Shown here in pieces: positions 1-62,746 of a stretch of 64,000 nucleotides of DNA. Position 1 is the first letter of the stretch. Each line of letters begins with the position of its first letter. This DNA is from Antedon mediterranea (taxonomy: Eukaryota > Echinodermata > Crinoidea > Comatulida > Antedonidae), in assembly GCF_964355755.1 (NCBI RefSeq), contig NC_092676.1, forward strand, positions 14,242,288-14,306,287. Direction: 5' to 3'. The translations under genes and the position numbers were made by a program. The notes under the pieces were generated by a model. It worked only from the letters and a program-made list of their open reading frames with translations, was not told the DNA's origin and made no database searches.

Positions 1-795
1 ACGGTCTCACGGGCTGACTTGAAAGCTGTATCATTGCCAGAGAGAGGATGGCTAAAAAATTCATCAAAATCTATTAGGCCGTGGGCTGAACACTGAAAAG
101 TGGCTTAGTTTTTTAGTTTCGTGGTGACCCTCTGGCAGCTACCTCATCTTTTGTAGAATTGTTCTACACATATATCATATCATAAAAACCAAACTCGTCA
201 GTGAAAAAAGTTGCACATTAATTAATTAGAACGATTTTAAGATTATTAATTAAAAACATGCGCCCTCTATTGCCAAAATGTAAAACTCCCTATTCTTTTG
301 CATTATACAATATCTATGTTTGCCAATAGAGGGCGCATTTTTATAAATTAAATAAGCTCACAATACTGTACCTGTCTGTATAGTATAAATACAGTAGTAA
401 GACATAGCAGTACCACAGATACTGTATTATATTACATTGGAAGTTGTTGATTTTGTATCAAAACGTTATAAATTATAAAATAGAGTGGAAACGTGATTGA
501 AAAGGATTATTTTATATCAATTTTAAAGAACAAACATAAAGATGATTTTTATGTCAATGTATTGTGTGTATAATAATTGTAAAATACTATAGACAACCTT
601 TATTTATATACTCATCACATTTATTAGAGACTTGGTAACATAAATACTATATACCAAGTTACAATTATCACAAAATTAATAAATTTTACTTGGATATTGC
701 ATATATTATTACAGGATATTCTATTTGGCAAATAATGAAATTAGGTTATCTTTAATGATTCTCTGCTCAATAACATTTTGACAGAAGATGTTATA
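1..795. other. Non-coding, repeat-type DNA at the window start
   Basis: No reading frame here resembles a protein I know. The stretch is AT-rich. It holds one short hairpin-type inverted repeat (258-338, listed separately). It may be intron or 3' flank of the minus-strand zinc-binding ORF that begins just to the right, because that ORF runs toward lower coordinates. Confidence 0.4.
258..338. repeat. Short hairpin MITE-like inverted repeat
   Basis: Positions 258-274 read ATGCGCCCTCTATTGCC and 322-338 carry the reverse complement with one internal difference. About 47 bp lie between the arms. Both arms are followed by AT-rich flanks. The structure fits a tiny non-autonomous TIR element or a foldback sequence; there is no coding content. 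Confidence 0.55.
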
Positions 796-852
796 CTATT
801 GACAGTACAGATCCACTTCTGGGTTTTCAGTTCGACTGTAGCATCTACATAC

Positions 853-1961
853 TCTTGTGTATTTTAAGTAGCACGATCGGTGATACTTAGCTTCAATAGC
901 TACCAAATCTTTATCGTGGATTTTTAGCAGCATTTCTTGATCTTTTTTTAGCGTTGCTGCTGTTTTTAAACATCCTCCATCAATGGTCTCACACTGCACC
1001 AACTTCTCCACTCTGCGCTTTCTTGAAATGTTGTTAGTTGCATATTGTATACGCTTACAAATAATACATATCGGTGGCAACACATGTGCACGATCAACAC
1101 GTGGACGGTCTTCAGGCATCATAGATCGCAAAAGAATCTTGGAAGCTTGTGCTGTGTTGTGTTCATCACCTGCAATTTCCTCAACATTTGGACTAGGTTC
1201 CAAAACTTCTTGTGCTTTGAAAGAATAGTGTTCAATAATTAATATTTATTGCTACAGTGTCTATGTGACCAGATACTAAATTACAATGACAGTTAAAGGA
1301 GTAGGAATGAAACTAAAGGATGAATTTAGGAATAATAAAGGCAAGTTGCCGATGAATGAACACATTTTACCAGTTGAGTACAGTTATACTTTTCACAGAT
1401 ATTTTCTTTTCCTTTCATTTTTATTCGCTTAGATGCCTTGGCAATAGGTGCTTGACATTATTATTATTATATATTCTGAAACTTACCTTTCCACTTTAAG
1501 TACCGTGCTTCAGCTCATTTAATCTTAGTAATATTGCAGAAGTTGAAATAACACTCAGTCAGTGTGGTATCCAGGAATCCCAAATCGATATAAAGCTATA
1601 AGCGAACAATCTAGCATAGTTTTAAAATACAGACAAAGAAAATGCTAACCTTTTTCTTGGCCTAGACGTCAAACTAGCAGTGCTAGTAGGCGGTCCTTCT
1701 TCGTCTTCGTCGGCGGTAGTACTAGGCTACTAGGAGTAGTGGCCTCATATATTCTTCGAACACGAAGGATGATGCAATTTTACTTTCAGGGCAATTCAGA
1801 ACCTTCCAACGTGAGCAGCATTCTTTGAATTTCGCATAACCTTTCCCAGTTAATTTTACTAGTTTTCCTTTGGAATTTGATACGTGCATACAGCAATAAT
1901 CTGGAGTATTTTCCTCATCTTCTTCCTCTAAAAACGTTTGTTTATCATCCGACGCAGCCAT
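853..1961 (-). pseudogene. Broken two-part cysteine/histidine zinc-binding ORF of a multicopy family
   Basis: Two minus-strand segments look like exons of one protein. The upstream part (start codon 1959-1961, readable to about 1740) begins MAASDDKQTFLEEEDEEN, then has a CC pair and the stretch KLVKLTGKGYAKFKECC. The downstream part (about 1228 to 853) has CIIC, VEKLVQCET, KDLVAIEAKYHRSCY, so a C-x2-C followed by H-x3-C pattern that probably binds zinc. A good donor (GTATGT) follows the codons for YTR at 853, and an acceptor-like CAAAG precedes the second part near 1229. An acidic stretch DEDEEGPPTS lies in another frame near 1690, which suggests a frameshift or a missed exon. From memory, similar domain pairs recur in large multicopy 'uncharacterized' proteins of marine invertebrates. 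The function is unknown to me. Later exons, if any, lie below 796. Confidence 0.4.
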
Positions 1962-2205
1962 GTTTCTGTATTGACGCGATGAACCGAGCCACACGGCTGT
2001 GTTAAAACGTTTCTCATTGGATGAGATTGTTTCTCACATATGAGAGGTTAATTGTGATTGGTCCAACCGTTGGTATTTAACTGTTGATTTTTCTTCGTAA
2101 TTTATCGTTTTTTATTAAAACTGTTTATTTACGACGATGGCGAGTTGGTGTTTTATGTTTTAAATTTTATTTTACAACTTTATATATAAAAACTGGGTAG
2201 CTGCC

Positions 2206-2223
2206 AGGGGTGGCACCACGACA
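2206..2223. repeat. hAT-type terminal inverted repeat (one end)
   Basis: CAGGGGTGGCACCACGAC fits the CAGGG-type termini of hAT transposons, and a similar end closes another element at 46503-46518. It sits 3' of the minus-strand transposase fragment at 2391-3197, as the end of such an element should. I did not find the partner end between 3200 and 4300. Confidence 0.45.
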
Positions 2224-2390
2224 AGTCAGGGGGTGTATAAAAATGAAATACAACCTATGCTGGGGGTCAGGGGGCCGGGGGAATTTTTGAGAAATTATAG
2301 GTTGTAAATTGTATAAATATGCCTAATGTAGATAACATTGAACTACGGAATTTTACCAGAGTTCTTGTTTTGTTTTATTTATGTCTGGAC

Positions 2391-3197
2391 CTACCTGTGT
2401 GCGAAGCAGTGAACCGCTACTGTAGATGGTTGATCTTGTTGTAATAAAGCTATAAGGCCATTGCGATGGCCTGTCATCACAGCAGCTCCATCTCCCAGTG
2501 CCACTAATTTCTGATTGTAAATTTCCCATGGCCGTTGAAGATTTTCATTAAAAGTGTGCTTTATTGCATCGTATATGGAAGGCGCGTCTGGTCTTTCCAC
2601 GTGTACACACGCCGCAAATTTTACATTAAGCACCCCTTGGTTCTTATAACGGACGTATATTAGTTCTTGTTCTTTAATTGATGAGTCGGTTGACCCATCA
2701 GACAAAATAGCCAGGTAGCTTGCGGTATCAAGATCATTTGACAATTTTTGTCTTTCAACCTGGGCTATTGCATCGGCGAATACTTTTGCCGTTGAATGGT
2801 TTGTGTATGTGTTGTCCAAACCTTTAGCCCTATCTAATTTGCATTGCCATTCATAGTCAGTAAACGGCCTGTTATGCATTGCCAGAGAATGGCAAGTACG
2901 AAACAAAATTGACAGCTTATGGACTACTTTTTTATTCAAATCTAAAATTATTTTGTGGCCTTGAGTATGATGTGGCTGTTCTTTAGCCTTCACGAGCGCT
3001 TTCGCTTTTGCGTGTGTTGCCGATGATTCGTGAAGTTTTATGGATTCAAGTTTTAAGGCACTGGAACCTTCATAAAAAGTGTTCCTTACTTTAACGCTTG
3101 GATCTATATCCGCTCCATCGAAGCATGTCCGACAAGACATGGTACCGGACAAATCGTTGTGAAAAAGCCATGGTCGGCCATGTTGCCATGCTGGCAA
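2391..3197 (-). pseudogene. hAT-superfamily transposase fragment (ZNF862/DUF4371-like)
   Basis: About 268 codons are open. The N-terminal part has a TTF/BED-type zinc finger: RPWLFHNDLSG, MSCRTC, and later KLHESSATHAKA, giving the expected C-x2-C then H-x4-H spacing. The middle has YLAILSDGSTDSS, which matches the first strands of the RNase H-like fold of hAT-derived proteins. The end is GDGAAVMTGHRNG followed by AVHCFAHR, a very typical block of the ZNF862/DUF4371 group. The frame then hits TAG inside a good donor (CACAG|GTAGGT at about 2392). Only about 185 bp separate this from the probable terminal repeat at 2206, so the C-terminal half of the transposase is missing. The upstream end is also closed by a TGA in frame. 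I read it as an internally deleted, non-functional copy. A domesticated host exon is possible but less likely. Confidence 0.6.
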
Positions 3198-3199
3198 AA

Positions 3200-5391
3200 A
3201 CTTTCTCTTTCATCCTTCTTTTTCGTACTTTCTTTGTGATTCCAACGTTTCTTCTTTAGTTTTGGTTTTTTTTTTCAGGCGGCGGAGAGCAATTTGCAAT
3301 AAACTTTCACATTATGACTCGCAATAAAAAAATGTAAAATATTTTGAAAGAGAGATTTTTTTAAACTTTTGACCAACGAAGATATCAAATGGCCAGAAAA
3401 GAAAGAAAACGTTTATTGCGTCATCCGGCCTATTATGACCATATATAAGGACGCTTTATATTATATTTATGATTAACGCATATGGAAACACGTTGTTTTG
3501 TCTATATGCGCAATAAAAAAAACGCGAGCTTCGAATTTGCAACGCAGAGAGCGAAATCGATACCAACTGCCGCACATACAACGACCGATGACCCGGCCGG
3601 AAGGAATCATTGTAATTCAATAGCGCCGCTCTCTACGCGCATGTGACGTGTAGAGCAGTGACGCTATTTTATATTATTTACTTTGATACCACCACCCCAT
3701 ACCGTCAACGTCCGACACGAAAAGCAACTTTTTTTGGCCGGGGACGTGAAAATTCCCAACCTATCAGAGCTCAAGATCAATTGACGTATGACGACGAACG
3801 TTACTGATTCGCCTAGATTTCATTTTTAGTGGAACTCTACTCACGTGGTGCGTACGTAACACACAGTGTACACACCACCCATCCTCACATGTCACGCACA
3901 CACAGTGTCTACAGCAGTTACAACAACTTAACCAAGCAATAATAATTTCGGATATGTTTTATTGTTAATGCTAGTGTGATCAATCAAGCATGCAAGCACC
4001 TGTCAGGCCGGCATAAATTATTTGTCCCCGACAAAACTTCATTGTGTCGGCGGTAAGCTAGGCTATTATGGTTTATTATAACTTTAGCCTAGCTAGGCCT
4101 AGGCCTGTTAATACTGTAATATTAATAAGGTAGGCCAGGGTCAGACGGCGGATTACGGAGGTCGCCAAACGGGTTGACCTATACTAAACTGATACTCGCC
4201 CTTAGTAAATAAAGGTCGCCACTGGCGACCGCTAATTTTCAGCCCTGTTTTACTAAAAAAAATATTTTGACTTTTGCCAAATGGCTAAACAAAATGAAAT
4301 GTTAGTGCTACCCCAGGTTAATGATAGCGCTTACAATGTTCAATTTATCATTCTGCTAGTGTTAAAAGATAGAAGGCCATTTCAAAAGCCGGTAATGATC
4401 TTGTACAATGGCTGTCAATGCTAAAAATACCCGCGCACAATAATACAAGGATACTTCGCATTTACCTACATGTATCTCCTTCTACAAAAATTGTTTTTAA
4501 TTTAAAAACCGGTTAAACATCATAATGTTGAAGAAAGACCAAATTTATTTAAAAAAATACTATTTTAATACTTTTAATACTTTTATACAAGCGTATTGAT
4601 TGGCAATGAATGGAACATTTTAATTTCTCTGTCAATTCCCTTAGGCGTAATAAATCAGTGCCCAACAAAAACCAGTCCCAGTTTTTTTTACGGATATTGA
4701 GCTAGCGTTTTTGGCCGCCGTCTATACAATCAACTTTATTAGTGCACTTCCTACACCACCATCATGCTCCCCGCAAATACTCGTATCGTTGTAAAGCCAG
4801 TACTTCTGTTATTTCAATATATAACACTGAAATTGCTTGGTGACAATTATATTAGCCTACAGAATTACACTGTGTTTGTATTCATTCGCTCAGCGTACAT
4901 TTTTACAATTTCCAGTTATTTTCCTGTATTAGTAGGTTTTATAGTAGGACGTAAAGTTGTATTCGTATTAAGAACAAATTGCATTAAATCTCAATTCTCA
5001 ATGGTTTAGAAAGTGTGTTCATACATTCCTGGGCACAATTAACAACTAAATAACATTCTATCATCTTTGTAATTGTGTGTGGAGTGCCTTGCATTCACTT
5101 TGACAATTTTTGTATCATCAAAGCTTTATATATTCGAGAACCATCCGTGGGCACGTACTAGAGGGTATGCGAGCGTACCATCTAGTCCAATGTATATTTC
5201 AATCTAGATTAGTTTGTAACCTTTTGAGTTTTATTTTTCTTTTATCTCATTTCTGTTAATTTCCTTTTTTCCCCACTTCACAATGCATGGCCTTAATGAA
5301 AAACACCCATACGAATGAAGTGTTTTGTGTGAGAAAATAAAGTATATTAATTATTATTAGGTATTTTTAACATAACCAATTTTTATTTTAG
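3200..5391. other. Gap before the first visible SUPT5H exon
   Basis: The start exon(s) of SUPT5H should lie here or further left, but I could not find a convincing acidic N-terminal exon with a donor in the right phase (phase 0 into 5392). The open frame at 4764-5009 has no features of SPT5 and no usable splice context. The rest is AT-rich with scattered AGGCCTAG palindromes. Confidence 0.4.
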
Positions 5392-34800: not shown

Positions 34801-37800
34801 ATTTTGCATTTTATTACCAAAGCATGAAACTTTGCAGAAAGTTTCTTTGATGGTACCGATACAGCCCACGAAATTAAGAAAAAAGGTCGACCTTAAATTC
34901 GCCAAGGTCGGCAGTCTCGGCAGTTCTAAAAATAGAAATTTCACCAAGGCCTAACCTAGCCTCCCTAGCTATATGTTTTGCAAAAAGAACTACCAAAATT
35001 AACTAAAATATAAAAACCTAACACTAAAATTTACAAGATAAATTCTATTTGATAACTGCTGAACGATGTTCAGCCAGGGAGAAACACCGTGGTTATGGAG
35101 CTAGGCCTAGCCGTACACAGAGCATAGTTGTTTGCTTGACATAACAGGGTATTCCCCTACACAGGTCTCGCGCTGTGCCCAGCCAGCTCATAGAAAGCCT
35201 GCAGCTCACACAAATGCATGATGCAATGGGTGAGTGAATTCAGGAATCATCTTAATTCCATGGTTTGTTAACTAAACACCACATGGTGGTGAATATGCGT
35301 GTTAAAAGTCTCAATGATACGATCCCTTAATAGGGAGGTTTCGCAACCTTACGAATACGATAACGAAAACGGATACGTCATACAATTGTGAAACTTTTGA
35401 GCTGATCCCCATTTCATATTTGTAAAGCGTATTCGTGTTGACGAATATCACCAGTCATATTCGTAACTACAAAACGAGTATAGTTTTTGATCTATTTTGC
35501 ACATTTTGCATTTGAATCAGGAATGATTCATGATTATAATATAATTATAGATTTATTGAAAGTAATTTACTAAAGTAATTTACTAAAATGCCAAGTCAAT
35601 TTTGATAAATAGCAGTTTTTAAAGTCCTCACTCACTTTGATGTTACGCTAGGCCTAGGCAGCCAAGCACCAAGCAACACGTACCTGCGCTTCGCTCAAAT
35701 TTACCGCAGTCATATTTTGGACGCGCCTCAATATTTCGTTGCCATGCGAAACAGATTTTTTTATGGCTTACGAAAACGAATACGTGTGCGTGACGTATCC
35801 GTTATCGTATTCGTAAGATTGCGAAACCTCTCTATTGTACCATGTTGTTGCTGGAGGCTTGAAAGGAGTTTCTAGGTCGGCAAGAGAATGCTGTCCTCTG
35901 TCAATTTAAGGTCGGCAATTGCCGATTGCCGACGTGAAATTCGAATATAGAATATATTGAATATAGTGGGTTTTATAGACCATATTTAATATAGGTCTAC
36001 GGAACTGTTTTTTTTTTTTTTTTTTGCGTTAAATTTTTTAATTGAAAGTTGAAATTAAATAACGATAACGATGATCGAGCCAGACCGCAAATTTTTACAC
36101 ATTTTTTACTCGATCGTTAATGGTTTCTTGGTTCTTTCAAAGTATGGGGTACAAATCCTACACACTGAAGGTTATGACGTTCATAAATCGTCAATATCAA
36201 GAATTATAAAGCGATTTACTAAATTTAAACAAATTAGTGACCGTCTGCGATCCGGATGTCCTAACATCGTAACGAATGAACACCTTGACATCATTGACGA
36301 AGCTATGGCCGAGAACGATGAAATGACTGCCAGGCAGTTCCAAGCCGTTTTGATGAATATAACTAATGTCAGTTTATCCATAGCAACTATTAAAAAAACG
36401 CGACGCAAATTAGGTTGGAGATGCAAAGGTACAAGATATTGTCAGCTCATTAGGCAGCCAAATAAAGTGGATCGCTTTCACTATGCATTAACGTGTATTA
36501 AAAACAAGGAGAGCTTTCATATTGTTATATTCACCGATGAATGCACAATCGAATTGGATCATCATACAAGAAAATCATTCCGAAAACTAGATGAACAACC
36601 AAAGCTGAAGGCAAGACCCAAACATCCTGGGAAAGTTTATGCCGATTGTTATCTCCACGTTGAAGTGTTCTTAAAGTTACGTGCGCTGCAGATATGATTC
36701 ATCTGCGTATTGGACTTCTAACAAACTCGCTTGCTGTACCCATGATGAGTTACGGTATCCAGTCCACTGTATCAGTATTCGTCCTTCCGTCTATTTTTTA
36801 AATTTTTCCCATTAGCCAAATCCCGCATTCCTTATCGTAACCCTGGATGTTGCTTCCAATTTTAAACGTCGACATTTTGTAAGTGATAGTAAAGATTAAA
36901 TGATGACACACACCAGTTTTCAGCATGTTTTTATACTTGTTGAGCGGCAACATAAACAAAATCGAAGAACAATATAATACAATAACTGTAGAGCATTAAT
37001 TGTGCCTTTGTTTTTATGTAACCATAAAAAAGCGCTAAAACAAAGGGAGCTGTCGATAATAATAATTTACAATAATCGTAGAACTGAAATTCATGAATGT
37101 GTTGAAAAATGGTGTAATTTACCGGTTGAAACATGAGTGCAATTACAGCACAAACAAACAAACATTACGCAAACATTTTTGGTTATTTTACATGATTGTA
37201 GGATTGTTTAGTGGTTTTTTTTTAAATCTATAAACAAAATTTTGTAGGTGTATGCCTACGTGGTACTCATTCGATTGTTGTTTATCGAAGCTACGAAGCC
37301 TACAAGTGGCGAAGCGTGGTAATGCATGGTACTTCGTGAGAACTGTTTAAGAAACGTGGGTAACGTTGCAGTAGTTTTTAGCTGTTCTGTATACATCAAA
37401 TGAACTTTCAGTTTCATGCTTAGGTAATAAAATGCACACCTTGTGGTATTAACTGCTCTACTATTAGTTTTATATTTGGCCAGATAAGTTTTTATTAATT
37501 AGTATTTTGAAAGTTTATTTCATCTTTTCAAATTATGGACAAAGAAAGCCTTTGCTGTATCAATTAGGAAATGGTATGCCAAGAAAATTTTGTAGGTTTC
37601 TCAAATTCTTGATGTGAGAACCACAAAAGCTATAGGTGGCAAACCTAGCAGCATACAACACTCACTGAAGTAGGCCTGCAAAGTTTTCAATAATGTAACA
37701 AATACAAATATAAATACAATAATAATGGAAGTATTGAGTGAAATTTCTAAATATTTGACAGTAATTACATCAAAGAAACTCTATTTCATTCATGATTCAC

Positions 37801-39132: not shown

Positions 39133-42100
39133 GGTTGAAATTTTCAGACCGTTTGGATAGTGTGCTCAATACCAAGGTAGAGCATAAATAAATAAAATAA
39201 CAGCAGAAAACTTGGTTACTTCATTGTTTTAATCACTACAAATTTGTTTCGTACGACCAGCATGTAGCTGGCCGCACTCTTCAGGTGAAATATAAAACAT
39301 AAGTGACACAGTTGTCTCATAGTGCTTAATAAAAGTGAGTCATCAGGAAGTCGTATACAATAGCCTATTGTTTTAGATAAACTGTTTGGATCTGCAATTT
39401 AGTAAGAATTTTTTCCTATGTCTACAAGTAGAGACTAACTCGTTCTTACGGTTCAGTGAGCATAGCTCTGGTTGACATATAATAACATACTTTTCATATA
39501 TACATAAATTACATCTTTTGTTAATATTTGAGTAAGGTTTGCATTTCTTTATAATTTTCCATTTAATTGAGTAATTTGTTTTAGAGTCTTTAAGTGTCCA
39601 TATATATTTACTGAGTTCCGTTGCATTTCTTAGTTTTTCGTTCCGGAATGAAGACGTATGGTTTCTGTATCTGGTTTTAAACTGGTTTTCAGTTAGTCCG
39701 ACATATGTTTCTTCTTTTGATGAATCTTCTCTCTTTACTGTAGCTTGGTAAACTACACCTTTTGTTAGGCAGTTACCTGGGAGCGGGCATTCATTGGGAT
39801 TGCGGCAGTTACATCCGCTTGTTTTCGCGTTGGTTTCAGTAGACTTTTCTTTGGCTATCACATATTTGTTGTGTGCGTTAATTACTTTGTCTACGCTGGG
39901 CATGCAACTGTAGCTTAGTTTCAAGGTATTTTTGTTAAATATTTTTCTGAGCTTGTTGCCGGCAGGAAAACAATCTTCTACTATAGCTAAAAACTTGTGG
40001 CCGATGTTGGTTGCTACGTTTTTGCTGAATGGTGGGTTAAACCAAATTATGTTTCTGGTACGTGATTTTTTGGGCTTCTGCTGTTCAGCATTGAACTCAA
40101 GTTGATGATTGTATCCACTTTCTTTGAGGGCTTCCTGGTATAGGGGTGCAGATGCATGAAATGTATCTTTGTCTGATGAGATGTCAGAAAGGCGTCTATT
40201 TATAGCAAGTGGGATGTTTCGGATAATAGATGGAGGATGGTTGCTGTCATGGTGCACGTAGGTTGGTTTGTTATTAGACTTAGTGAAAGGTCGGAAGATC
40301 CCTGTCCTTAGGTCGAACATTACATCCAAATAATTGACTATTTTCTTGTTAGCATCAATTGTTAGCTTGAGGTTGTTCTCCTGGAAAACCTTACAAATAT
40401 CTTTCTTGATTAGCTCAATCGTTTTGGCTGATTCGCGAAACGCGGCTAGGCCATCGTCGCGGTATAGACCAATTTGGTTGCCATATTTGTTAGACAGTTG
40501 CGACAAAAGATATTAACCTACGATTTCACAGGTTTCAGCACCATCAAAGCTTCCCATTGTGACGTCAAACACAGGTTGGTTTTCAGTTCCTTTTTTGCAC
40601 CATGTAGCGTTATCATGGAAAAGGAGTGACTTTTTCGCTTGGATAATAATATTTGTTTCTTCATCGGAGGTTGCTTCAAACTCGGAGGCGAATTCAAGGG
40701 CTTTTTTAAGTAGGTCACTGGTTATTGACGGGTAGAAATCAACTATGTCGAAGCAAATAAACGAGTGCTTCTCCTTGTTTTGAATGTTCTTATACCATTC
40801 GATAACAGAATTAGTGTTCTTCCATTGATTTAATCCTGTAGACGCTATTATTTTCTTATTTATTCTTTCAAGGATTTGTTTACTTACGATGCCAATTTCT
40901 GATTTCGATGGGTTGATCAATCTACATGTCGGGTTGTTCTCGAAGTTGGGTTTGTGGTCTTTTAGTGTTATAAAAGCTTGCTTCTCGGCTAAACGCTCGA
41001 TTCTGCTTTCCAATTTTAGTTTTGCGGCGGTTTCATATTCATCTCTGGCTAATTTAGAAGTTGTGCTTTTGTTCGTCTTCTTATAAGATTTTGTAACACG
41101 CCGAGAATGTTAAAGAGTCGCTCTCCAATTGAGTTTGAACAATACCATGAAAGCCCCAGTGGTCTAATGGTTAGGACATCTGCATATCAAGCAGGCGGTC
41201 CGAGTTTGATTCTCGGTTGGGGCGACTTTTTCTCATTCTCACAGATTTCCTCATCTTTATCGTTTCAAATTAATTAATTAAAATTTCAGTATATCACCGG
41301 GCGGTTTAGAATTAATGTTCTATGCCTGATATGTTTATATATATATAAGTATCTCTTCGGAGATCCCGCCTCGTGAATAAAAATACTGAAAGATGAGGGC
41401 GTATCAATTTGATCTCTGTTGCGCGTGCGAACAACTGAGGACTAATGCTGTTCCGCCGTACCACGGCGAGAATGTTAAAGAGTTGCTCTCCAATTGAGTT
41501 TGAACAATACCATGAAAGCCCCAGTGGTCTAATGGTTAGGACATCTGCATATCAAGCAGGCGGTCCGAGTTCGAGTCTCGGTTGGCGCGACTTTTTCTCA
41601 TTCTCACAGATTTCCTCATCTTTATCGTTTCAAATTAATTAATTAAAATTTCAGTATATCACCGGGCGGTTTAGAATTAATGTTCTATGCCTGATATGTT
41701 TATATATATATATATAGCTATCCAATCGAGTTTGAACAATACCATGGTCTAATGGTTAGGGCAACTGCATATTAAACAGACGGTCCGAGTTCGAGTCTTG
41801 GTTGGGGCGACTTTTTCTCATTCTCACAGATTTCCTCATCTTTATCGTTTCAAATTAATTAATTAAATTTCAGTATATCACCGGGCAGTTTAGAATTAAT
41901 GTTCTTTGCCTACTGTGTTTCTATATATCAGTATATCACCGGGCGGTTTAGAATTAATGTTCTTTGCCTGATTTGTTTATATATAAAAGTATCTCTTCGG
42001 AGATCCCGCCTCGTGAATAAAAATACTGTAAGATGAGGGCATATCAATTTGATCTCTGGTGCGCGTGCGTACAACTGAGGACTAGTGCTGCTCCGCCATA

Positions 42101-57926: not shown

Positions 57927-58006
57927 TTTAGATTTCAAAGTTGTATTTTTCCAACAACATTATGGCTAGCTGTCTGCTGTGTGGGTGGCTGGCCGGCTGT
58001 GTTTAA

Positions 58007-58021
58007 AGTGCTAGTGCCACA
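58007..58021 (+). repeat. Left terminal inverted repeat of the Kolobok-like element
   Basis: AGTGCTAGTGCCACA directly after TTAA. Exactly complementary to 62728-62742. The match ends at the next base. Confidence 0.9.
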
Positions 58022-58182
58022 CTTTCGACAAATACGACATTTACTATTATCAGTATCAAGAATAATATATGTAGATACTGTGTTAAATTGAGTTTCAATA
58101 ATAAAGTGTTATATATATGAAAAAAAAAGCAATATGTGTGTCGTTATTTGGTCACGAAATGTTACCTTTCGACATTTGTATG

Positions 58183-58203
58183 TGACGTCACAGCCAGAAC
58201 ACC
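58183..58203 (+). promoter_or_regulatory. Left subterminal motif with a palindromic CRE (TGACGTCA)
   Basis: TGACGTCACAGCCAGAACACC lies about 100 bp upstream of the ballast gene's ATG; a TATAA (58242-58246) is nearer the start. The minus strand at the other end has TGACGTCACAGGCAGAAGACA, 18 of 21 identical. CRE sites bind CREB/ATF factors. The motif may drive transcription, bind the transposase, or both. Confidence 0.5.
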
Positions 58204-58288
58204 GACGATCGCGAGGAGGAACTAACCTGCATCTTGCGCCTTATAACACACCCCGCGGCGATCACAACAAGCTTACTGAATATTTGTT

Positions 58289-59345
58289 ATGGATTCCGAA
58301 AGCGATTTAGAAAGTGTTTCATCAGATAGACCAAGTAGTAGTAGTTCATCATCAAGTGATGAGGAAAATGGTACTGGCCTTATAATACCATATAATTTCG
58401 AACCACGTTTTGAGGAACATGAATTACAAGACATTGATGAAGAAGCCCAAGGTGAAGATGTTGACATGATGGCTGCACGCCTGGATAATTTAGAATGGTA
58501 GGTGTTCCCCCGTTGTGGTTGTTGTAGTGAAGCGTCTGCTTGATTGGGCTAGGCCTAATTAATCAATCGAAGCTAGAGCTACCTCAGTGTTTCTAAATTC
58601 TAAATATACAATCGGTTTTTTTTTCAAATTTTGTGAGATGCCATACGTTAATATAAAGTCCCCATCGTAATTTGTTTGATGATTATTATTAGATGGGTCG
58701 GATTTGGGACGGTGGTTTAATAATAATAGGCTACTCCTTGCTTGGCTTGGGTTTGGTTATAATAATAGATGGACTAGGCCTAAAGTATTAATATTAATAT
58801 TCTGGTCATAGTTCAAATGGGCATTTGAATTTCACTTGATTGAGTGACTGCTGATATGATCAACTAATTATAATCATAATAATTAATTTTATAATGACTA
58901 AATACATGTTTTCATCTTGTTCAGGTGTTCCTGTGAACATTGCCAAATCATGGGCTCAGGGGAAGAGTGCATCTGCTGCAAGGAGTGCGAAAACACAAGT
59001 GCTAAACTTGAAGACAATGTCAATCTGTTCAACAATGATGCTCCATTCTCCTGCATCACAAATCATCCAGGTTTCAAGTCTGTTGCTCTTGACCCTTGGG
59101 TGCTGGAAGTAGCATGGCTTTCGTATAAGCAACACTATGATAAGAAAGTTATCTATAACGGACCAAAAAACAAAAAGTACCGTCACATATCGTACAGACA
59201 GTATGCCCGATGGATACATGGATATGTCGGAAAAAATATCCGTATAGTGCTTCCGTCTTGTGTTGTCTCTTGCATAAGAGCACATTTCCCACCACCTGGA
59301 GATGACCCAGTGTTTACAGGATTTAAATTACCCGACCTAAATTAA
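58289..59345 (+). CDS. Stand-alone P2X7 ballast-type cysteine-rich protein encoded inside the transposon
   Basis: Two exons (58289-58497 and 58925-59345, phase 2 join inside the Trp codon) give 209 aa. The first 70 residues are serine- and acid-rich (DSESDLESVSSDRPSSSSSS), probably disordered. From residue 70 the protein follows the intracellular zinc-binding 'ballast' domain of vertebrate P2X7: WCSCEHC, ECICCKEC, ITNHPGFKSVALDPWVL, YRHISYRQYARWIHGYVGKN, VLPSCVVSCIRAHFPPPG and the end FTGFKLPDLN. The Cys pattern suits a two-zinc centre as in P2X7. There is no channel domain, membrane segment or signal peptide, so it cannot be a receptor. AATAAA lies at 59413-59418, after the stop. Position inside a transposon and opposite the transposase suggests an accessory protein. 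Its job is unknown; nucleic acid or transposase binding is a guess. Confidence 0.88.
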
Positions 59346-59412
59346 AACAGCCATAGCAGCATTTTAATTTTCTTATACTATTTAGTATTAGTTTAATAAT
59401 TTTTTGAAATTA

Positions 59413-59418
59413 AATAAA
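59413..59418 (+). terminator. Poly(A) signal of the ballast gene
   Basis: AATAAA 68 bp after the TAA stop codon of the ballast gene, in the 280-bp gap between the convergent genes. On the opposite strand an AATAAA (plus-strand TTTATT, 59557-59562) could serve the transposase. Confidence 0.5.
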
Positions 59419-59625
59419 GTACAGTAATAATTTATACAATTTGCAACTCATTTTGATTTTATTGCTTCTCTCACTCATATACATCTCCAATACATTGTTA
59501 TTGGGGAAAAAATGAAATAGTCTGAAAATACAGTACATTGTGGATATTTCAACAATTTTATTATGTCTACAATAATATGCTGTGTTCAATTCATTTATAT
59601 GATTAATAAACATGGTGTCAAGTTA

Positions 59626-62401
59626 TTACTGGTTTTTAAACCGGCTTGTATGTTGGGCAACTGCAGCACTTTTTTCAGGTCTTTCAAATGCTGCGCACAA
59701 TGATGGTGGTATGGTCTCTGTAAATGCATCTAGATTTGGTTCCATAACAACCTCAAGAAGACTCTTGAACAACTCATCAACATAATTATATGTACATTCT
59801 GTTAAAAGTTTTTTAACAATGTAACCCCCTTTCTTGTACTTGGGAAATGATATTACGTATTGCTTTTCTCCAGCCTTATTTACCATTTGTTCTCTGGTAC
59901 TGTTCTCATTATAGTGAAGAGCAGCTATGAAAAGTCGACTCTTCATTCCACTATATGAAAAGTGGAACATTTTAGGAGCGAAATGATTAATAAGGCTATG
60001 GTACCCTTCCACTGATGACGTTTGCCCATGAGGTGAAGAATTGCGAATGTCCTTCACCAACATTTTGGTTTCAACAAATTTTTGTAAGGCATCACAAGCT
60101 TCAGTATCAGCAGTCAACCACTTTGTTAACCGTTGGTCTGAAGGAGACATTACCGGATGGGCACATTCCGTATATGGTTCAGGATGTCCAGTATGAAGAT
60201 TTTGTACATGTCTTACCACAGACTTCCACTTTGCTTCAATGATATCTTTTTCATCAATGTTGGTGGACATTACACACCAGTAATAATGGTTAGAAATAGA
60301 TTTTTGCCAATTACCTAAAAGGTTACACGATTTTTTTGTTGATATGGCCTGGATCTTTTTCTTAATACTTTTTGCAATGTGCCAGCAGTCAAAATAATGC
60401 TTAATGTCTGGAAAATTATCCCTTAAATATTTTTGTAGTTGTCTATGTCTATCGGAAACAATTGTACTTATATTTACTTTGAAATCTTTAAAGACATCCA
60501 ATGTTTTTTGTAGACCCTTAAGTTCCATATGATAAGATGATTTAACATCACTACTCTGAACTAATTCAACATTCAAAATCTTATTTTCGGTCAAGTCAAC
60601 TGATGTGTATGAACCATATTTTGCACTGTGGCCCATACTGTCACAGCGTCCATCTACGCCAATAGAAATATCCTTGCCCTGTAATTCAGCAAAGTGCTTA
60701 TCCCTTTTAGAAAACCAATTATTCCTTACAACTCTGTGCAAGAAATTTTGTTGGTGACGGAAAAAAGTACGTTTACTAATGGCGCTCACATTTATACTTT
60801 TTAGCGCTCTTAAAAATTGTGTGGGTGTTGAGCCAGAAAAAAGAATAGCCCCACTTAGTAGAATGTTACCCATTGGGGTACCTCTAGCTTCTGGCTGACT
60901 TTTCCACTCGCGGTTAGTGTGGCAACATAAGCATCTTATGTTTGCAATAAGCATGCTTCCCTTGTTACGACAACATACTTGAACTTTACTGGAAAAACAG
61001 GAAAGGCATATAGAAAGTAGCATCAGTAGGTGATTGTGAAAAACAATGTATTTTGGCTGTCTATGTGCATCCCCATTAAATCCTTTCATCTCATCATCTT
61101 CCATCTCTGTATCCTCACCATCTGAAACCGATACATCCTCTTCCGGTCGATAATCTGAATCGCTATCATCTTCTGTCGACTCATCAAAATCTTCATCATC
61201 TTCATCAGACGATTGTTCTTTGTATGTTGGTTTGGCTTTTTTGGGTGCCACGACTTTAGCTTTGCTCATTTTTCGTCGCCGAACACGTTTTCTTTGCTTT
61301 CGTGTCTGTGTGCCTCTGGACACCATAAGAGGCTTATCGCATACACTTGCCAGCTCCTGTTCATCCTCTTCCTCATCCTCTGTTCCAGTAATAAGCTCCC
61401 TGATCACTCCCGCCTTTTCTCTTTTAACAAATGCTGACCTGTTGGAATGAATATTAATACTATTAATAAATAAATATCAGACAAACCTAAACATTTTTTC
61501 TTTTATTTATTGAATCTATTACACTAACCTCTGTGCTGTACACTCTTTGGCCACCTGACCACCATCGTCGGATGTCTCCCTCACAACATGTATTGTTGGT
61601 ACCGCTGTTTTGGCATTCAGTAAAAGCCTAAAAGTAGTGAGGAAACCGTTGTCTAGTTAATATTAAGGGCAAAATAACGTAAGCAATATAATTATAATAT
61701 AGTTGTTAGTTCCCACTTACACCGACAGGACATTCTCCTACTGAGCATAATAGTGTAGGCATTGACTAACCTCCATCATGTTTGTACAGCATTCAGTAGT
61801 ACTAATTAGGCCTGGCTAGGCTAGCCCTTATCCCATTATTATTAATGTAATAAGCCAAATACATAACAACTAGGTTAGGCCTAGTTGAGTTATCTGTGTG
61901 GTGTAGGCAAAACTGTTACTATTACTTATTAATTATGTTAAGTTTATTTAAAGATAAACCAACATAAAGTAAATACTATACATATATATCAGGCGGAGCA
62001 ACTGTACTCTGTATGTATGTACAGTAGTTTTAATGTTACTGCAAATTATGTGCCGGCGCGCCTAGAAGCTAGGCTTGGCCCAGCGGGCCCAGCAGGCCTA
62101 ACAATAGCGACGGCGAACGTATTTTATGCAGTTTTTGTTGAAGGTAAAATATTAAAAGTAAATTCATCTAATTAACAAATACTTACTTTGTAGCTAGACC
62201 AGCTTTGAATTGACCCATGTTTGTAAATGAATCGTCTGAAAAATGCTTAAAACAGAGCACTGATCGAGCTGTGGGTTTCCATTTATCGCGTTTTGTACGT
62301 ACAAATCGCGTCCATTGCCTGGCGATGGAACTGTCCTTTGGCCACCGAAACAATAAGTTATTTTCATGATCACAATTCGCAGCAACACAGCGAGAAGGCA
62401 T
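59626..62401 (-). CDS. THAP-domain DDE-type transposase (Kolobok-like), three exons, intact
   Basis: Exons in coding order: 62401-62187, 61627-61529, 61438-59626 (2,127 nt, 708 aa plus stop), all GT/AG and in phase. Residues 1-84 are a full THAP zinc finger: C5, C10, C50, H53, with W30 and P43 conserved; its AVPT box (AVPTI, about 80-84) is split off into exon 2. Residues about 155-220 are basic then strongly acidic. About 260-276 is CCRNKG...RCLCCH, a likely second zinc site. The rest looks like an RNase H-type DDE fold: GVDGRCDSMGHSAKYGSY (D near 367), STIVSDRHRQLQKYL (D near 434), HYFDCWHIAKSIKKK, and QTSSVEGYHSLINHFAP (E near 582). The catalytic assignment is inference. The frame has no stop or shift. 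It should excise and insert the element at TTAA. A domesticated gene is less likely because matching termini flank it. Confidence 0.88.
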
Positions 62402-62560
62402 ATTGATTTATTATAATAGATAAATAAAAAAGTAGCTGACAATAATAATAGTTGAAAATAACAATTAGTACCAGTAGAAAGCAGTATACAGTATATATTA
62501 TTAGTAGTAAACCAGCGTCTCATGCATGCACGTGTGTTGTTTTAAAAGGCGGAAGTAGAA

Positions 62561-62581
62561 TGTCTTCTGCCTGTGACGTCA
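62561..62581 (-). promoter_or_regulatory. Right subterminal motif with a palindromic CRE (TGACGTCA)
   Basis: Minus strand reads TGACGTCACAGGCAGAAGACA, about 160 bp upstream of the transposase ATG. A TTATAA (plus-strand 62585-62590) is next to it. It mirrors 58183-58203 at the other end of the element. Confidence 0.5.
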
Positions 62582-62727
62582 CGCTTATAAAGTACGAGGG
62601 CATATTAACGTTCCTAATTAAGAGGCGATTACGGCCATACCGTTAAAAGTAGGTCAATGCAAATTTCGGTCAAGATTTATAGACATTAAGTCTACCCAAA
62701 AAATCATTAATATCTTAATTTAAAGGC

Positions 62728-62742
62728 TGTGGCACTAGCACT
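62728..62742 (-). repeat. Right terminal inverted repeat of the Kolobok-like element
   Basis: TGTGGCACTAGCACT, followed by TTAA (62743-62746). Exact reverse complement of 58007-58021. Confidence 0.9.
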
Positions 62743-62746
62743 TTAA

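Follow-up and report, generated by a model that had tools for sequence, protein, structure and literature searches.

A recently mobile, probable Kol0-type transposon with a gene for the P2X7 ballast domain in Antedon mediterranea

What is a gene for the ballast domain of the P2X7 receptor doing beside a transposase gene in a crinoid genome, and does it belong to a mobile element? The question is raised by a 64,000-nucleotide stretch of contig NC_092676.1 of Antedon mediterranea (hereafter the window), in which an earlier note had described a TTAA-flanked, two-gene transposon close to one end. Following it up with searches over the whole assembly (354 Mb in 18 contigs), we arrive at a reading to which we give a probability of about 85 %: the element is of the Kolobok superfamily (Kol0 type), recently mobile and apparently autonomous, and the ballast gene, known as KolX, is its functional accessory gene.

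Boundaries, copies and empty sites

Window positions 58003-62746 make up one 4.7-kb DNA transposon, the element proper extending from 58007 to 62742. On either side lies a TTAA target-site duplication without strand (58003-58006 on the left, 62743-62746 on the right), which was read directly and is matched by single-TTAA empty sites of sister copies. The left 15-bp terminal inverted repeat, AGTGCTAGTGCCACA, occupies 58007-58021 on the plus strand and the right one, its perfect reverse complement, 62728-62742 on the minus strand. The coordinates, the flanking TTAA and the perfect ends given in the earlier note proved exact on re-reading. There are 646 TTAA in the window, hence ~65,000 pairs at most 10 kb apart, and by a hand estimate (4^-15 per pair) a chance combination of TTAA and a 15-bp inverted repeat is expected ~6e-5 times per window; each terminal 15-mer is found once within the 64 kb. 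The termini, AG...CT, are of the 5'-RR...YY-3' type that distinguishes Kolobok from piggyBac.

A genome search with the element recovered 23 matching pieces in all. Five are full-length copies of 98-100 % identity, and among the rest are further copies split by insertions or rearranged as well as older or fragmentary pieces at 88-96 %. TTAA stands on both sides of all ten copies in which both ends could be read (that of the window and nine others), and the end repeats are perfect in nine of the ten, one older copy having a single change in each repeat. Two of the nine further copies, on contig C4, have one flank in common with a third copy; they appear to have arisen by duplication and do not represent independent insertions.

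Joined flanks were built for seven copies, and those of two copies were searched for empty sites. For the copy at C5:21.5 (contig and Mb), 40 scored places, the best 40 of 670 candidates, match across the joint at 97-100 %; 40 further rows from this search correspond to the opposite arm of these places, and the copy sits within a high-copy repeat that is itself palindromic. For the copy at C4:17.4, seven places cover at least query bases 20-204 at 92-95 % and two others span it over a shorter stretch at 94-95 %, while the other matches (40 of 1182 candidates were scored) are filled sites or weaker partial matches. The empty sites of both copies hold a single TTAA. In a ~430-bp derivative (C5:884697-885123), nothing but the two end regions is left; TTAA flanks it on either side, and one of its end repeats is shortened. 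The element has been mobile in recent times. That its ends might belong to two separate elements, or might pair by chance and delimit no unit, had been named as a condition that would overturn the earlier note; the occurrence of almost identical complete units at different places, each flanked by TTAA, and the single-TTAA empty sites rule this out, and its probability is practically nil.

The two genes and their recurrence in the genome

The exon boundaries of both genes were set by splice consensus and open frames. The transposase gene runs on the minus strand, with most of the THAP domain in coding exon 1 (62187-62401), the end of this domain and an AVPTI stretch in exon 2 (61529-61627), and the DDE core in exon 3, which includes the stop codon (59626-61438). 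Joining 62401-62187, 61627-61529 and 61438-59626 yields 708 amino acids with no internal stop, and alternative acceptors of exon 3 at 61459 and 61420 likewise give an open frame. In Pfam, THAP is matched above its cut-off (E-value 5.4e-10), and MULE (2e-4), DUF7511 (0.005) and ISL3 DDE (0.009) are matched below theirs. By eye, four motifs of the DDE core were made out: DGRCDS begins at residue 367, SDRH at 433, DCWH at 455 and VEGYH at 581. A zinc finger H-x4-H...CxH, also picked out visually, lies between the second D and the E, and all these motifs have counterparts in the alignments of other families. The THAP domain and DDE-type nature that the earlier note ascribed to the transposase are thus borne out, the former by Pfam and the latter by visual inspection. 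When viral contigs were scanned with the transposase, 16 stretches fitted a pattern and no relative was confirmed.

These features agree with the published definition of Kolobok, which requires 5'-RR...YY-3' termini and a DDE transposase with a C/DxxH motif, here DCWH, and a zinc finger between the second D and the E (PMC9587614); a THAP domain is usual in Kolobok transposases (PMC6004289). Within the superfamily, a CCHC finger downstream of the first catalytic D marks the groups KolobokP, E, D and 5 (PMC9587614), and by eye no such finger follows DGRCDS in our sequence. KolobokP was also rejected on the ground that its terminal direct repeats of ~450 or 660 bp were not found in the element, where a search for direct repeats of at least 30 bp returned none. 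As to piggyBac, the four Pfam families matched at E-values up to 10 include no piggyBac-type transposase domain, and this assignment was rejected as well.

KolX faces the transposase gene, from which it is separated by 280 bp. The gene model comprises coding exon 1 at 58289-58497 and coding exon 2 at 58925-59345, both on the plus strand, the second with the stop codon and the seven-cysteine ballast domain of P2X7; the intron is of the GT-AG type and the predicted product has 209 amino acids. This protein matches Pfam P2RX7_C with an E-value of 3.7e-16 and, in the PDB at E-values up to 0.001, three distinct sequences, all of them P2X7. A profile made from KolX sequences only finds four distinct PDB sequences at E-values up to 1, again all P2X7 (5e-16 to 1e-14). 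Gene models and Pfam agree with the earlier description of two intact, spliced, convergent genes, one of which encodes a 209-residue ballast protein.

Six KolX families were aligned with rat P2X7, three of the six KolX rows being incomplete and pieced together by hand; all six and the rat protein have in common the seven cysteines as well as R546, Y550, R551, W556, P570, I577, R578 and a final GF (rat numbering). To judge from this pattern, the cysteines of KolX probably bind zinc. Invariant residues specific to KolX are E, R and V at rat positions 501, 566 and 574. The five residues of the P2X7 ballast that contact guanosine diphosphate (GDP) were named by Rump et al. (PMC7016195); R546 and R578 are kept in all six families, H547 in three, and R574 and K583 in none.

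Does the pair recur elsewhere? The KolX query gave 112 matches genome-wide, fragments included (150 of 152 candidates scored), and transposase exon 3 at least 85 (best 73 of 371 candidates scored). For the pairing count, 85 KolX places were set against 50 transposase places with a distance limit of 8 kb: 36 KolX places have a transposase match within this distance, in convergent orientation in 33 cases. Besides the window family (F1), three others, F2, F3 and F7, each have KolX and transposase matches. F2 measures 5.3 kb, with a 5,308-bp block common to two copies at 99.98 %, and ends in TTAA plus a 26-bp repeat with one mismatch; F3 has 6,193 bp and ends AGATCATGGAACATGG...; F7 has ~5.0 kb, two copies at 98 % and ends AGTGGAGGTG.... 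In one F3 locus (L023:1804-3943), part of the transposase gene is repeated as a large inverted duplication whose arms are 94-98 % alike. The ballast gene belongs to the element: families whose ends differ have the same convergent arrangement of the two genes. The proposal in the earlier note that the domain has its home in an accessory protein of transposons is supported by its presence in several Kolobok-type families of this genome, and Kojima and Bao 2022 state as much for the Kol0 lineage (PMC9587614).

Within the window family, KolX DNA is present in all five full-length copies; copies lacking the gene had been named as a possible refutation. Exon 2 of KolX is open in eight of the 11 copies in which it was matched; in the C4 copies at 17.4, 19.09 and 19.35 Mb it is open and transposase exon 3 is broken. 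A further family, F3N, measures 3.1 kb and derives from an F3-like element; 14 copies span query base 1 or 3 to 3118 at 94-100 % (for example L021:3653-6770), and its 26-bp ends match those of F3 except for a single base on one side. Of the transposase gene, just the final part can be recognised, and KolX is broken in all four copies inspected (L021, L022, L029 and L030). F3N was accordingly rejected as a mobile family carrying KolX alone; it arose by deletion, and its KolX is broken. Since it spread with both genes defective, neither protein is needed in cis and both, if needed, act in trans. The right side of F3N also holds an inverted copy that by eye resembles KolX exon 1 (75 % inverted match).

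Selection on KolX was gauged from the proportions of differing synonymous (pS) and nonsynonymous (pN) sites. When F3 is compared with F3N over 93 ballast-domain codons, pS is 0.85, which is saturated, and pN 0.135. Between families, pN/pS is 0.39-0.49 for KolX (four comparisons) and 0.28-0.66 for pieces of the transposase (five comparisons, the value of 0.66 coming from a piece of 18 codons only), with synonymous sites saturated and one pS above 1, so that these ratios are only a rough guide. KolX is thus kept for its protein, under a constraint about as strong as that on the transposase pieces.

Matches to P2X receptors in this genome are confined to two loci on contig C3 (~4.20 and 6.68-6.72 Mb). 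No listed KolX match is nearer to them than ~1.5 Mb, and a fusion of P2X and ballast domain was rejected for this genome.

Two further sets of loci came to light in these searches. One is a repeat family of six loci (L049 and the loci that match it, L046, L048, L051, L057 and L060; L047 does not match L049 beyond 65 bp), which carries a KolX exon and, in L049, a THAP frame convergent to it (Pfam E-value 3.5e-11), no catalytic core being found. Truncated repressors of the P element offer a comparison, by analogy with which this family might encode a THAP-only protein. The other consists of three Kolobok-like transposase matches in tandem on C5 (15230984, 15237993 and 15244991), ~7.0 kb apart, the first of them within L042; none of the KolX places entered in the pairing count lies within 8 kb of the trio.

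What KolX may do for the element

As is familiar from this family (PMC6004289), the THAP-DDE transposase would recognise the ends through its THAP domain and excise the element, and its DDE core would cut and join at TTAA, thereby duplicating it. KolX would be made from its own gene and act in trans, with a fold held by zinc, as a cofactor of the complex of transposase and DNA; in doing so it would use the surface with the two conserved arginines, the equivalent of the GDP-contacting surface in P2X7. We lean slightly towards this cofactor role: a part in the transposition complex is in our judgement the most likely function of KolX, and a host-directed one comes next.

The ends of the element contain one more feature that bears on this choice. 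The palindrome TGACGTCA, which we take to be a CREB/ATF site, is found at 58183-58190, where it starts at element base 181, ~100 bp ahead of the start codon of KolX, and lies within a 21-bp inverted repeat (90 %) that the right end also has. Its second site is 62574-62581, at base 166 counted from the right end and ~170 bp ahead of the start codon of the transposase. It recurs near the ends of other families despite their differing terminal sequences, at 197 and 197 from the two ends in F3 and F3N and at 190 from one end in F2 (L021, L032 and L036 among the loci); the ends of F7 have no full site. The expectation is ~0.006 per 600 bp of end sequence. The whole window, with ten occurrences for 0.7 expected, indicates that the motif is common in this DNA generally. 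It may drive both genes or form part of the ends.

Several observations weigh against the preferred reading. Three of the 36 pairs are not convergent, and 49 of the 85 KolX places have no transposase match within 8 kb. Twenty of these 49 overlap matches of the F3N family, and 21 fall in 20 loci that were inspected with a wider query panel: eight loci gain a transposase, convergent in every case as far as coordinates give the orientation, and 12 are still without one, including L062, where a frame resembles by eye the C-terminus of the transposase, and the six loci of the repeat family around L049. The remaining eight places include L031 and L041, both with transposase pieces. The full-length copy at C5:21.5 has a KolX with a broken frame and an open transposase exon 3, which implies that an intact KolX is dispensable in cis, or perhaps dispensable altogether. 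The transposase found no sequence match among solved transposases, that of the P element included (best E-value 9.4, unrelated), and a single-sequence structure model of KolX, with a predicted local distance difference test score of 37.4, gave no usable fold. The saturation of synonymous sites belongs to the same side of the balance.

Part of the evidence would fit a KolX that serves the relation between element and host, for example in expression, silencing or nuclear import, instead of the transposition reaction itself, a proposal that competes with the cofactor role over the mode of action of KolX only. KolX forms a gene of its own, with an upstream region not shared with the transposase gene; derivatives have spread without an intact KolX in cis, the transposase exon stays open in the C5:21.5 copy, where KolX is broken, and TGACGTCA near both gene starts hints at control of both genes by a host factor. 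Yet KolX stands convergent with the transposase across divergent families and is constrained about as strongly as the transposase pieces, whereas host-facing proteins often evolve faster; we regard this proposal as possible but doubtful. A more specific version of the cofactor role would make KolX a nucleotide-binding partner of the transposase, the equivalent in trans of the GTP-binding domain of the P element, with the guanine-nucleotide site of P2X7 as a relic. This analogy is improbable, given that three of the five contact residues are not fixed and that the solved P element transposase is not matched; a search for literature joining KolX, GTP (guanosine triphosphate) and transposase found none.

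Alternatively, the ballast gene could be a host gene that the element picked up as a passenger and that does nothing for it. Rump et al. 2020 describe ballast-domain genes across Metazoa together with two conserved neighbours (PMC7016195), an arrangement that sits uneasily with a purely mobile origin. A passenger would hardly be expected, however, in several families that have different ends and carry KolX convergent to the transposase, nor to be constrained as a protein as KolX is. Kol0 elements are moreover known from vertebrates, annelids, cnidarians and sponges (PMC9587614), and no host-type KolX gene lacking element ends was recognised among the genome matches, which does not prove its absence. 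Capture as a passenger is, on balance, very unlikely. The preferred reading, KolX as a functional accessory gene of its transposon, has a practical side: with an apparently intact, recently mobile Kol0-type element whose KolX is open, in a genome that holds several such families, the role of KolX in transposition, and hence the original selection on the P2X7 ballast domain, becomes open to a direct test.

Other frames lie elsewhere in the window. Two adjacent long frames on the minus strand (39373-41109) look to us, by their motifs, like a Penelope-type reverse transcriptase and a GIY-YIG end; 39376-40512 has no Pfam match at E-values up to 0.01. Two frames have matches below Pfam cut-offs: one at 36059-36697 on the plus strand resembles a Tc1/mariner-like helix-turn-helix transposase (HTH_32, E-value 7e-4), and one at 2391-3209 on the minus strand resembles a C17orf113/DUF4371-type zinc-finger protein (8e-7 and 0.003).

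Relation to known systems

The two-gene element type is already catalogued. Kojima and Bao 2022 report that the Kol0 group of Kolobok, represented by Kolobok-1_XT, encodes a transposase together with KolX, that KolX resembles the ballast region of P2X7, including its seven conserved cysteines, that a P2X4-like gene fused with KolX to give P2X7, and that Nanor probably represents a domesticated KolX (PMC9587614). This was the only paper found in a literature search on the P2X7 ballast domain and transposons, and a search pairing P2X7 with Kolobok added just one other, in which either word occurs a single time; in Rump et al. 2020, the main text does not contain the word-stem 'transpos' (PMC7016195). 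With the link between transposon and P2X7 published in 2022, the finding at this locus is a rediscovery in a new element. The earlier note had also suggested that P2X7 received its domain from such an element: the homology stands, as the KolX profile leads to P2X7, and the direction of transfer is the conclusion of Kojima and Bao. What is added here are several families in one genome, the selection on KolX, the spreading derivatives with broken KolX, the presence of TGACGTCA near both ends and the identity of the nucleotide-contact residues that KolX keeps.

With Kol0 elements as described, the window family shares the TTAA duplication, the AG...CT ends, the DDE core with DxxH and the presence of KolX as a further gene, which encodes the ballast domain; it differs in having its own 15-bp ends, the comparison with reference elements being one by description only. 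With the ballast of P2X7 (Pfam P2RX7_C; rat structures 6u9v and 6u9w), KolX has in common the seven cysteines and the invariant residues listed above; in contrast to P2X7, it is without the P2X channel part and does not keep R574 and K583. Its pattern of GDP-contact residues resembles that reported by Rump et al. for non-vertebrate ballast domains (PMC7016195). NANOR and the nanor-like or ZCD proteins are, like KolX, mostly short proteins that contain this cysteine domain and lack a membrane part, but they come as one or a few (fewer than ten) genes per species (PMC7016195), as against the 85 KolX places here, many of them beside a Kolobok transposase. Finally, the transposase resembles those of the P element and THAP9 in combining an N-terminal THAP domain with an RNase H-type DDE core, whereas the P element carries a GTP-binding domain inside its transposase, where GTP positions the transposon end (PMC7776569).

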